Made by a program: the position numbers and the translations under genes. A stretch of DNA of 36,415 nucleotides, from NCBI GenBank assembly GCA_016208465.1, contig JACQXZ010000053.1, positions 1-36,415 on the forward strand, given 5' to 3'. The stretch is from Actinomycetota bacterium (lineage in GTDB: Bacteria > Actinomycetota > Aquicultoria > JACQXZ01). The notes beneath the pieces were generated by a model that saw nothing but the letters and a program-made list of their open reading frames with translations, was not told the origin of the DNA and ran no database searches. This document shows, one piece after another, positions 9,751 through 12,787 of this stretch; the first letter of the stretch is position 1; every line of letters starts with the position of its first letter.

Positions 9751-9843
9751 AGGTTATAGGTTGTAAGTCACAAGTCAAAGCTATATCCTTCTCTTCCATT
9801 TCTCTCCACTTATGACTTACGACTTGTGACTTGTGACTTTTTA
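9751..9843. repeat. Bipartite heptad array with inverted arms
   Basis: The plus strand starts AGGTTAT, AGGTTGT, AAGTCAC, AAGTCAA and ends CACTTAT, GACTTAC, GACTTGT, GACTTGT, GACTTTT. The 7-bp phase holds across the middle. The right arm is roughly the reverse complement of the left (GTCACAAGTC against GACTTGTGAC), so the tract can fold. It supplies the last codons of the radical SAM gene on its right. Confidence 0.85.
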
Positions 9844-11210
9844 GCTTTAACTACAAACGATGCGAGACTTTTGCTTTCAAATATTTTATCTAAAATTTTC
9901 TCTGTTATCCCGCTGATTATTTTAGGCAGTTTGTAATTAAATGAATAAATTTTAAGCATTCTTCTGACGTACCAGAATGCAAAATTAACCTGATCGTGAG
10001 TTATGGATGGTTGATTAATAATTGTATCTTCAAAATAACTGTTTAAATTTTTACCTGTCAGAAATTTATTATTCTCACATTCGTCAAATAACCTTGTATG
10101 AGGAAAGGGATAAAATATAGAAACCTGTAGGTTGGTTGGATTAATTAAAGCGTTTAATTTTATAGTATCCAAAATCATCGACATATCCTCAAAAGGCAAA
10201 CCAATCATATTATAAGAAACTGTATTTATTCCATATTTTTGGCACAGCCTAAAAGCATTAATAATATCTTCCCGTTTCATCCGGCGATTTAAGACCTTTT
10301 CTCTTATATAATCGTTCCCGCTTTCCAATCCCATCGAAATCTCAAAACAATTCGCCTCTTTTAGCATTTTAACCGAGACTTCATCAAGCAAATCAACTCT
10401 TGAATTGCAGGAAAAGGGAAGATTTATTTCTTCTTTCCATCTCGCGGTAAATTCATTTAGCCATTTCTTATTTAAAGTCAGAATATCATCATGAAAAACA
10501 ACATATTCCGGTTTTTCAATTTCTATAATTTTCTTAACTTCTTCCAAAACATTATTAACGCTTCTGAATCTTACATATTTGCCTGAATAAATTTTTTTAA
10601 GCTGATGATTGCTGCAAAAAGAACATTCGTAGGGACATCCGCGCGATGCCATAAAAACTGTTCTTTTGAGTTTCGCGTCTTCAAGATTTTTATAATCAAA
10701 AATATCACGATCGGCAAATGGCAATTCGTCCAGATTCTCTTTTAATGGCCTCAAGTGGTTCTTGTGTATCTCATTATCTTTCTTTACCCATAAATTCTTA
10801 ATATCTGTAAAATCTTTATTTTTTTCAATCCTGTCGCAAAGTTCAACGATTGCTTCTTCACCCTCTCCAATACATATCATATCAATAACTTCTGAATTAA
10901 TTGAACCATCTGGATCCAATGTCGGATGAATTCCTCCGCATAAAACCGGAAGATCGAAGTTCTTTTTCACATAACCTGCATATTTTTCAACATAAGAAAA
11001 CATATTAGTGGTTGACGAAAAAGCGATTAAATCAGGTTTTTCCTGATTTATAATTTGCACAAAGTTTGATTCAGACATCTCATTTATTAAGTGAATAAGA
11101 AAGGTTTTGTGACCAGATTTTTTCAAAGCAGCAGATATATGTGCGATTCCATGATAAAATTTTCCTTTTGATCCGATACTGAAATCCGGATAAACCAAAG
11201 CAACTTTCAT
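9810..11210 (-). CDS. B12-binding radical SAM protein (canonical CX3CX2C)
   Basis: An N-terminal cobalamin-binding-like domain (VALVYPDF, CGGIHPTLDPDG, IGEGEEAIVEL) is followed by a radical SAM domain with MASRGCPYECSFCSNHQ: Cys192, 196 and 199 ligate the 4Fe-4S cluster. ISMGLESGND and YNMIGLPFEDM are typical later barrel motifs. Members of this group often methylate or modify lipids, polyketides or sugars; the position among glycosyltransferases suggests a glycan or lipid-carrier substrate. The last ten residues (KKSQVTSRKS) are encoded by GTCACAAGTC-type heptad repeats, so the native terminus has been overwritten. The Shine-Dalgarno GGGGGA, 7 bases before the ATG, comes from the hairpin end of the DUF559 element. 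The substrate is unknown. Confidence 0.85.
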   Translation of the reverse strand: MKVALVYPDFSIGSKGKFYHGIAHISAALKKSGHKTFLIHLINEMSESNFVQIINQEKPDLIAFSSTTNMFSYVEKYAGYVKKNFDLPVLCGGIHPTLDPDGSINSEVIDMICIGEGEEAIVELCDRIEKNKDFTDIKNLWVKKDNEIHKNHLRPLKENLDELPFADRDIFDYKNLEDAKLKRTVFMASRGCPYECSFCSNHQLKKIYSGKYVRFRSVNNVLEEVKKIIEIEKPEYVVFHDDILTLNKKWLNEFTARWKEEINLPFSCNSRVDLLDEVSVKMLKEANCFEISMGLESGNDYIREKVLNRRMKREDIINAFRLCQKYGINTVSYNMIGLPFEDMSMILDTIKLNALINPTNLQVSIFYPFPHTRLFDECENNKFLTGKNLNSYFEDTIINQPSITHDQVNFAFWYVRRMLKIYSFNYKLPKIISGITEKILDKIFESKSLASFVVKAKKSQVTSRKS

Positions 11211-11217
11211 CTGCAGA

Positions 11218-11223
11218 TCCCCC
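11218..11223 (-). promoter_or_regulatory. Shine-Dalgarno supplied by a repeat end (radical SAM gene)
   Basis: Minus-strand GGGGGA is the outer edge of the left hairpin of the DUF559 element and lies 7 bases before the ATG at 11210. Insertion of the element would therefore have created or replaced this ribosome-binding site. Confidence 0.5.
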
Positions 11224-11259
11224 TCTTTGAAAAAGAGGGGTTAGGGGAGATTTTTAGAA

Positions 11260-11607
11260 TCATAAATAACTCCATATCTTCTCAATTACTCCTTTAAGAT
11301 TCTCAAAAATATCCCTATCAGAGAATCTTAAAACTCTTAAACCAATGCTTTCCATGTGTTTGTCTCTATGATTGTCTTTTACTTTTCCTTCTTCAGAATA
11401 GCGCTGTCCACCATCAAGCTCTATGACCAGATTTCCTTTGGGACAGTAAAAATCTACTATGAAATTTCCTATTGGCTTTTGCCTATAAAATTGATAACCC
11501 TTCAGTTGTTTTCCCCGTATCTTTAACCACAGCATTTTTTCTGCATCAGTCATATTATTTCTTAGCTGTTTGGAATACTCTTTCGAACGATTATTATACT
11601 GAAGCAT
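11260..11607 (-). CDS. DUF559 (Vsr/PD-(D/E)XK-like) endonuclease-domain protein
   Basis: This is a 115-residue single-domain protein of the DUF559 family, related to very-short-patch-repair endonucleases. Family features are visible: LRNNMTDAEKMLWLKIRGKQL near 15-35, YRQKPIGNFIVDFYCPKGNLVIELDG at 41-66 (D52 and E63 as candidate metal ligands), and the C-terminal GLRVLRFSDRDIFENLKGVIEKIW. A longer frame back to 11652 would add FPPLTKGDKGG-type residues that are only translated inverted repeat. The ATG at 11607 has GGGGGA 9 bases upstream, taken from that repeat, and is preferred. The gene has no link to glycan synthesis and interrupts the operon between two glycan genes. It probably nicks or cleaves DNA at the flanking hairpins, as an inference. 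Confidence 0.85.
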   Translation of the reverse strand: MLQYNNRSKEYSKQLRNNMTDAEKMLWLKIRGKQLKGYQFYRQKPIGNFIVDFYCPKGNLVIELDGGQRYSEEGKVKDNHRDKHMESIGLRVLRFSDRDIFENLKGVIEKIWSYL

Positions 11608-11616
11608 AAATACAAA

Positions 11617-11622
11617 TCCCCC
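11617..11622 (-). promoter_or_regulatory. Shine-Dalgarno supplied by the inverted repeat (DUF559 gene)
   Basis: Minus-strand GGGGGA, the inner half-site of the right terminal repeat, is 9 bases upstream of the ATG at 11607 and decides that start over the ATG at 11652. Confidence 0.55.
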
Positions 11623-11623
11623 T

Positions 11624-12787
11624 TTATCCCCCTTTGTTAAAGGGGGAAACATTTCTATTTACTATACTTTTAAATAAATCAAAATATCTCTCTCCAACAA
11701 CTTCCCAGCTATATTTTTCTTCAACTATTTTCCTTCCATTAACACTTAATCTGTTCCTCAAATCCCCATTTTTTAATAAATTTATAATTGATTCGGCCAA
11801 CTGATTCACATTTTCCGGCTCTACTAAAATTCCATTTACTCCATCTTCAATCACCTCAGGAACACCGTCTACTTTTGAAGCAATTACAGGTTTGCCCGCC
11901 GCCATCGCTTCAAGATTAACTATTCCAAAAGGTTCAATTCTTGATGGACAAACGAATACTTCACAGCCGTTTAGTAAATTTAATATTTCTCTTCTTGGAA
12001 GCATTCCCATCAATTTAACTTGTTTTTTTAAATCAAGATTGTTTATTAAATTCTGCAATTCATCTTTTTTTGCCCCGTCACCGGCGATAATTAAATCAAA
12101 ATCAGGAAATTTCTTTGAAATAATTTTAAAGGAATTAATTAAAACATCAAAACCTTTTTTGTGTTCAAGGCGGCCGAATGAAAAAATATATGGTCTTTCA
12201 GTTTTATAAATATCTTTTAAATCAAATTCCGAAAGGTCTATGCCGTTGCCTGTTGGAATTGACTTATCTCTAATAGATGGTTCGAGCTTAATCGCATCTT
12301 CAAGAAGACTTTTAGAGCAAGCAGTTACAAAATCTGCTCTTCTTAAAAGATTAACTGTTAACCAGCGGTAAATATAAGACTCTTTAGGAAACTTTTGAAT
12401 ATCGTTCCCATGAACACTAACTACTATTGGAAGATTAAAAATTTTTTTTAATAAAAGAATATAAAGCGCCGCGCTGTCAGAGAAATGAAGATTAATAATA
12501 TCAGGTTTCTCTGTTCTGATGATTTTAATAAGTCTGACAAAAGACGGGAAAAATGATAAAGCAAAATATGCAGAACTTTTCAAAGAATTCCCCGGGAGAC
12601 CAAGATAAGTTCTGTATATTTTTATGCCATCTACAGTTTCAACAGACGGCAGATTCGGCTTGGGACGTGATGTAATAATACTGACTTCGCAATTTTTGTT
12701 TTTTAATATCCGGGAAAGATGATAAACAACAAACTCTACTCCACCGATTAGAGGCAAATATACATTGGTAATAATTATAACCATCAT
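11624..12787 (-). CDS. GT4 family glycosyltransferase
   Basis: This is a retaining GT-B glycosyltransferase with an N-terminal NVYLPLIGGVEFVVYHLSR (glycine loop), VVSVHGNDIQKFPK and CSKSLLEDA in the acceptor half. In the donor half are FSFGRLEHKKGFDVLI, LIIAGDGAKKDEL and an intact EX7E motif in RIEPFGIVNLEAMAAGKPVIA. Length is normal at about 387 residues. Two adjacent ATG codons compete as start (12787 and 12784). The final residues SPFNKGG and the stop codon lie in the terminal repeat of the neighbouring DUF559 element, so the original end has probably been replaced. It follows the Wzz-like gene by 15 bases and probably adds one sugar of the repeat unit; the specificity is unknown. Confidence 0.88.
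   Translation of the reverse strand: MMVIIITNVYLPLIGGVEFVVYHLSRILKNKNCEVSIITSRPKPNLPSVETVDGIKIYRTYLGLPGNSLKSSAYFALSFFPSFVRLIKIIRTEKPDIINLHFSDSAALYILLLKKIFNLPIVVSVHGNDIQKFPKESYIYRWLTVNLLRRADFVTACSKSLLEDAIKLEPSIRDKSIPTGNGIDLSEFDLKDIYKTERPYIFSFGRLEHKKGFDVLINSFKIISKKFPDFDLIIAGDGAKKDELQNLINNLDLKKQVKLMGMLPRREILNLLNGCEVFVCPSRIEPFGIVNLEAMAAGKPVIASKVDGVPEVIEDGVNGILVEPENVNQLAESIINLLKNGDLRNRLSVNGRKIVEEKYSWEVVGERYFDLFKSIVNRNVSPFNKGG

Follow-up and report, generated by a model that had tools for sequence, protein, structure and literature searches.

Palindromic repeats inserted in frame in housekeeping proteins are exemplified by the Rickettsia palindromic elements, for which we know of no enzyme. The BoxC repeats of Escherichia coli, in turn, have been known since the 1990s. 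Intrastrand-triplex motifs (TM; BoxC/PIT in E. coli) are dispersed repeats present in >260 genomes (Holder et al. 2015, PMC4666352), with BoxC in E. coli treated also in PMC2267715. Five inverted TM pairs have been described in E. coli K-12, the E. coli motif is the only one reported to form a triplex in vitro, genetic instability characterizes TM loci, and the 2015 survey reported no mobility functions beside E. coli TMs (PMC4666352). The E. coli protein YcjD has earlier been assigned to the PD-(D/E)XK superfamily, and detects Vsr (PMC1189080). In the freely accessible literature we found no report linking DUF559 or ycjD to flanking inverted repeats, nor RAYT with Vsr.

Here we analyze a locus in which a DUF559 gene lies between two inverted hairpin units, within a stretch of 36,415 nucleotides of an Actinomycetota genome (hereafter, the window). 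Comparison of this locus with DUF559 loci across bacteria reveals that the association between this nuclease family and the flanking units is strong, specific and general.

Structure of the element and its nuclease

The DUF559 gene is the sole gene between the left and right units, and is encoded on the minus strand (Table 1). No C-rich perfect hairpin other than these two was returned by a scan of the complete 36,415-base window, and none at all by the same scan of the reversed sequence. A pattern scan produced 3 matches versus 0.08 expected. The bracketing by inverted hairpins put forward in the initial annotation is thus confirmed.

Table 1. Features of the element and its host genes (window positions)
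Feature	Position	Strand	Composition or basis
B12-binding radical-SAM gene, host gene downstream of the element	9810..11210	-	Pfam PF04055/PF02310
Left triplex-type unit	11219..11250	+	CCCCCTCTTT-GAA-AAAGAGGGG-TTA-GGGGAGA; hairpin outside, third strand inside; 9-bp perfect stem 11220-11228/11232-11240, linker TTA, GGGGAGA 11244-11250
DUF559 (PF04480) Vsr/EDxHD-like endonuclease gene	11260..11607	-	Pfam; likely start ATG 11607; mechanical ORF 11260-11652
Arg codon CGC at conserved His position	11401..11403	-	ELDGGQR vs E-x-DGGQH
Right triplex-type unit, inverted orientation	11617..11646	-	CCCCCTTT-AAC-AAAGGGGG-ATAAA-GGGGGA; read 11646-11617: 8-bp perfect stem 11639-11646/11628-11635, then GGGGGA 11622-11617
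Last GT4 codons, SPFNKGG + stop, encoded by the right unit	11624..11644	-	ORF 11624-12787
GT4 glycosyltransferase, host gene upstream of the element	11624..12787	-	Pfam PF00534/PF13439

Each unit consists, in order, of a pyrimidine arm, a loop, a purine arm, a short linker and a purine third strand that mirrors the purine arm. In the left unit, GGGGAGA is the exact 7-nt mirror image of AGAGGGG in the purine arm, and the third strand of the right unit is a partial mirror of its purine arm. Among units with an asymmetric purine arm, the G-rich block fits the mirror better than a direct copy of this arm in 91 of 107 decided units and worse in 16, with 30 equal (Wilcoxon p=4e-13). Since the succession of arm, loop, arm, loop and mirror strand constitutes the definition of the triplex motif, the units can be assigned, on their sequence, to the published TM class. 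The GGGGA/GGGGGA block, previously taken for a separate recognition half-site, is hence best described as the third strand of such a motif.

In a relative from the same class (L067), with a radical-SAM protein 61% identical to that of the window, the GT4 and radical-SAM genes share a 4-bp overlap and nothing is inserted between them, and the GT4 C-terminus differs from the one in the window. This junction provides the empty site that the initial annotation had proposed to search for, and bears out its claims that the element interrupts a glycan operon and contributes the end of the GT4 protein. The start codon of the radical-SAM gene (ATG 11210) is located 8 nt past the GGGGG of the left unit, and in 27 of 53 other loci the third strand is found 4-14 nt from a start codon, in the Shine-Dalgarno range. 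The proposal that the units supply the Shine-Dalgarno of the nuclease gene and of the next gene is compatible with the spacing in both cases, which falls short of proof. A 12-nt perfect inverted repeat (TTTAAGATTCTC / GAGAATCTTAAA, with a 16-nt loop) is also present at 11293-11332, in the 3′ portion of the DUF559 gene.

The window protein matches PF04480 with E=2.6e-33 (114.6 bits, for a gathering cut-off of 20.6 in Pfam) and 3hrl, the solved structure of a gonococcal DUF559 protein, with E=1.1e-19; its closest named DUF559 relative is found in an Omnitrophota MAG (72%). A Foldseek search with its AlphaFold model (pLDDT 87) ranks 3hrl first, followed by I-Bth0305I (3r3p; prob. 1.00, E=1.7e-4, TM 0.71/0.78) and then by 5hmC-specific and Vsr nucleases. 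The modeled protein hence presents the nuclease fold of a homing-endonuclease family, with the homing endonuclease I-Bth0305I as its best characterized predicted match. The window copy keeps E, D and E-x-D, and lacks the full E...D...E-x-D-G-x-x-H motif, the His of which is present in 94 of the 95 homologues with a parsable motif. Its membership in the DUF559 family stands on the profile match. Its activity is doubtful because the conserved His is replaced by Arg, and this copy may be catalytically dead.

Association of DUF559 genes with triplex-type units

The host genome (1.75 Mb, 105 contigs) contains seven DUF559 copies, all of which (7/7) lie between inverted C-rich hairpins and at mutually unrelated insertion sites. 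To define bracketing more generally, we required, on each side of the gene, a C-rich hairpin with a strictly perfect stem no more than 200 bp away. By this definition, 64 of 101 non-redundant DUF559 loci (a first set of 107 minus six duplicates) are bracketed, another 27 have a unit on a single side and 10 have none. A survey of 80 loci from named genomes (Thermodesulfobacteriota, Chloroflexota, Nitrospirota, Bacteroidota, Bacillota, Patescibacteria, Cyanobacteriota, Pseudomonadota, Planctomycetota and others) by itself contributes 46 loci with units on both sides; having been seeded with an alignment of bracketed copies, this survey samples the nearer part of the DUF559 family. More than a dozen bacterial phyla show the pairing, and ten further DUF559 matches detected in relatives by whole-genome search, fragments included, show the same kind of flanks as judged by eye.

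No such arrangement is observed around neighboring genes (0/148 bracketed on both sides; Fisher p=2e-33 versus DUF559 loci) or larger proteins of the DUF559 superfamily (0/13), and only 1 of 1070 random positions is bracketed. Together with the window and pattern scans, the neighbor-gene and random-position controls rule out chance or low complexity as the source of the units. Within the host's class, genomes with small DUF559 genes are more strongly enriched in the hairpins (Mann-Whitney p=0.0017).

In the main arrangement the hairpin lies outside and the third strand inside, with six element pairs showing the reverse order. The two end units resemble each other more within a locus than between loci (median score 21 versus 11), and their similarity rises with that of the protein over 3437 cross-phylum pairs (rho 0.37, permutation p=0.001; partial correlation 0.36 after correcting for G+C). 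Two loci present divergent configurations. The N. gonorrhoeae gene encoding the 3hrl protein (L173) is flanked by exact mirror-type units in direct, not inverted, order, and a Rickettsiaceae MAG DUF559 (L135 2890-3375) has very long matching ends (score 112) of a divergent type, composed of an A+T-rich hairpin and CCCGCCCC blocks.

The E. coli DUF559 gene, ycjD, lies between sapF and fabI and is carried by 3362 of 5426 genomes. BoxC-type units are found only 3′ of ycjD, so E. coli is a case of adjacency and not of bracketing. E. coli genomes without ycjD carry the eef operon at the sapF-fabI site (PMC12817139); this operon being an alternative allele, the site offers no clean empty counterpart. 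Directly upstream of ycjD (L181 1548-1600) lies a long perfect palindrome, CACCTCATTCTGACAA...TTGTCAGAATGAGGTG, unlike BoxC.

Insertion sites and solo units

A generic unit pattern returns 252 (redundant) matches in the host genome versus 17 for the reversed pattern. Among the matches listed, 98 rows collapse into about 42 sites, which suggests roughly a hundred unit sites in this genome, most of them without DUF559. The hairpins are thus literally widespread without the nuclease gene, a condition that had been proposed to refute the link. It does not do so, because the dependence runs one way: DUF559 genes have units and most units are solo, as is the case for RAYTs and REPs. In genomes with DUF559, there are solo units that are nearly identical to one another despite unrelated flanks, some of them apparently in frame in ORFs, suggesting that the roughly 40-bp unit can spread without the gene. 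One host-genome solo unit lies in frame in LeuRS, encoding SPLDKGGHRGV (L008 1501-1538), and a solo triplex unit (L037) is apparently in frame in a glycosyltransferase of the same genome.

Other repeats and transposases were considered in connection with the units. In the host genome (L004, L005, L007) and in genus g4 (L041, L171, L285), units or cassettes lie within a MITE-like outer inverted repeat, GGTTCTTTCTCA...AGTGGGTA, which was rejected as the general true end of the element because most copies lack it; another outer repeat, GGTACCTCTAAAAACAC, surrounds units at L350-L353. Mobilization by RAYT/Y1 enzymes was likewise rejected. Y1 (HUH) transposase genes are present in 31 of 60 relatives, and none of the five in the host genome has a unit within 900 bp.

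Several comparisons document the cassette in different states. Two copies in genome G020 lie in unrelated contexts and, in the 264 bp that can be compared starting at the left unit, are 97.7% identical. At nuoF-nuoG, genome G003 carries the complete unit-DUF559-unit arrangement, and its congener G015 retains the right unit without DUF559 and the left unit. The Bradyrhizobium pheS-pheT junction holds the full element in some species, a unit with an apparent 3′ end of DUF559 in L253, and overlapping genes with no insert in others (L281). Many species harbor an unrelated small ORF at this junction (L260-L262, L270, L274, L276, L278-L280), which points to a general insertion hot spot. In a Gastranaerophilales family, DUF559 is found in frame in the linker of PriA in 4 of 60 members and is absent from most others, the site being a hypervariable linker and not a conserved target. 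As identified by Pfam, in-frame hosts of DUF559 comprise PriA, ValRS, a GHMP kinase (IspE-like), HsdM, HsdR, MmeI-type enzymes and HsdS. In the host genome, a cassette lies in frame in a type I hsdS gene, which is split (L006 1441-2382). Restriction-modification genes (hsdS, hsdM, hsdR, MmeI-like) recur among the hosts.

On these sequence comparisons, mobility of the cassette appears well supported. The nuoF-nuoG, pheS-pheT and PriA sites contain deletion remnants, expanded intergenes or a hypervariable linker, and neither exact element ends nor a target-site duplication could be fixed from them or from E. coli sapF-fabI.

Origin of the element and relation to known systems

With a probability of roughly 60%, we interpret the segment as a copy of a minimal mobile element with a very wide distribution, composed of a DUF559 gene between two inverted triplex units whose triplex-forming ends are the substrate of the nuclease. 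When single-stranded or extruded during replication, a unit would fold as a hairpin plus third strand; the DUF559 enzyme would recognize units of its own type and cut at or beside them, and host repair would then copy the unit, or the whole unit-gene-unit element, to new places, with deletions leaving solo units behind. Insertions would survive where harmless, as in gene junctions, linkers and in-frame positions, the latter through tolerated unit-encoded peptides such as SPFNKGG and TPHPNPLPQGERG. We infer, in short, that the unit is bound or cut by DUF559 and that this enzyme is responsible for its spread by transposition. Counting against this interpretation are the predominance of solo units, the 10 of 101 loci without a unit within 200 bp, the 3′-only units of ycjD, the six reversed pairs, the lack of a fixed target-site duplication or exact ends, and the missing His in the window copy. 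The apparent spread of solo units without the gene further implies that DUF559 may act in trans alone, or may have no part in this spread.

It is unlikely, but in keeping with this last point, that another activity (replication slippage, template switching or an unlinked transposase) spreads the units and that DUF559 is simply cargo caught between two of them. The many near-identical solo units with unrelated flanks in the same genomes, and the units inside MITE-like outer repeats in several genomes, are as expected from such a process, which leaves unaccounted for the absence of any other bracketed gene among 148 neighbors, the co-variation of unit and DUF559 sequences across phyla and the lack of units near the Y1 transposase genes of the host genome.

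We regard as quite unlikely a regulatory or housekeeping role without mobility, in which the units act as terminators or operators that insulate and autoregulate the nuclease gene, or in which DUF559 is a repair enzyme limiting triplex-DNA instability. The Shine-Dalgarno spacing of the third strand in 27 of 53 loci, the fixed position of ycjD in E. coli and the genetic instability of TM loci (PMC4666352) would agree with such a role; the presence of the same cassette in unrelated contexts, in frame in PriA, ValRS, HsdM, HsdR and MmeI-like proteins, and its presence or absence between close relatives would not. Classical homing, with DUF559 as a free-standing endonuclease for fixed host-gene sites and the units as tolerated ends, is very unlikely, for even though I-Bth0305I is the best characterized fold match and some sites are reused (the PriA linker in several genomes, HsdM in L106 and L152, an IspE-type kinase in L127 and L359, and pheS-pheT), the seven sites within one genome have nothing in common, the PriA linker is hypervariable and a common site can reflect inheritance or transfer together with the host gene.

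The recurrence of the pairing across phyla makes the DUF559 family the best candidate yet for the spreader of the orphan TM/BoxC/PIT repeats. Our results, backed by strong controls, connect this repeat class across bacteria with the nuclease family to which E. coli YcjD and the 3hrl protein belong. The 2015 survey found no gene able to spread the repeats, and this old problem now becomes testable in E. coli. We give even odds to the more specific proposal that DUF559/YcjD proteins are the missing mobility enzymes of these repeats, operating with no transposase or recombinase, recognizing their ends as a folded triplex or hairpin and able also to live in frame in essential proteins. Nuclease domains framed by repeat-encoded linkers sit inside PriA, ValRS and restriction-modification proteins, and many annotated stretches resembling TPHPNPLPQGERG or SPFNKGG are probably repeat-derived inserts.

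The comparison with RAYT and REP sequences made in the initial annotation is apt. DUF559 and its hairpins form one unit repeated across bacteria, with insert-free sites and duplicates. As in REP/BIME-RAYT systems, inverted copies of a dispersed palindromic repeat lie on either side of one gene (in 7/7 host-genome and 64/101 overall loci), many repeats are solo, and enzyme and repeat types co-vary. RAYT enzymes, however, are Y1 HUH transposases, whereas the gene between the repeats is here a PD-(D/E)XK nuclease; the repeat has a triplex third strand, and the Y1 genes of the host genome lack these repeats. By analogy, the element would work like REP/RAYT without being a member, because its gene is DUF559 and not Y1. 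Compared with insertion sequences and MITEs, it has terminal inverted units but no transposase between them, and the insert-free sites available fixed neither exact ends nor a target duplication.

By its predicted fold, the enzyme is closest to the Vsr-like/EDxHD homing endonucleases (I-Bth0305I), which likewise are nucleases without a recombinase. The element differs from them in having no intron or intein and no demonstrated fixed homing site, and in its terminal repeats with genome-wide solo copies; insert-free sites exist at L067, nuoF-nuoG and PriA. The Rickettsia palindromic elements provide a parallel for in-frame palindrome insertion in housekeeping proteins, but have a different sequence, and here a nuclease gene belongs to the set. 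The units themselves share with TM/BoxC/PIT the pyrimidine arm, loop, purine arm, TTA-type second loop and purine third strand, as well as dispersed copies that sometimes form inverted pairs. The initial proposal must be qualified in one respect: the hairpins are not private to this element, falling in this described class, for which PMC4666352 reports no link to DUF559. Where that work describes orphan repeats, the units studied here bracket a nuclease gene and also sit in coding sequence.
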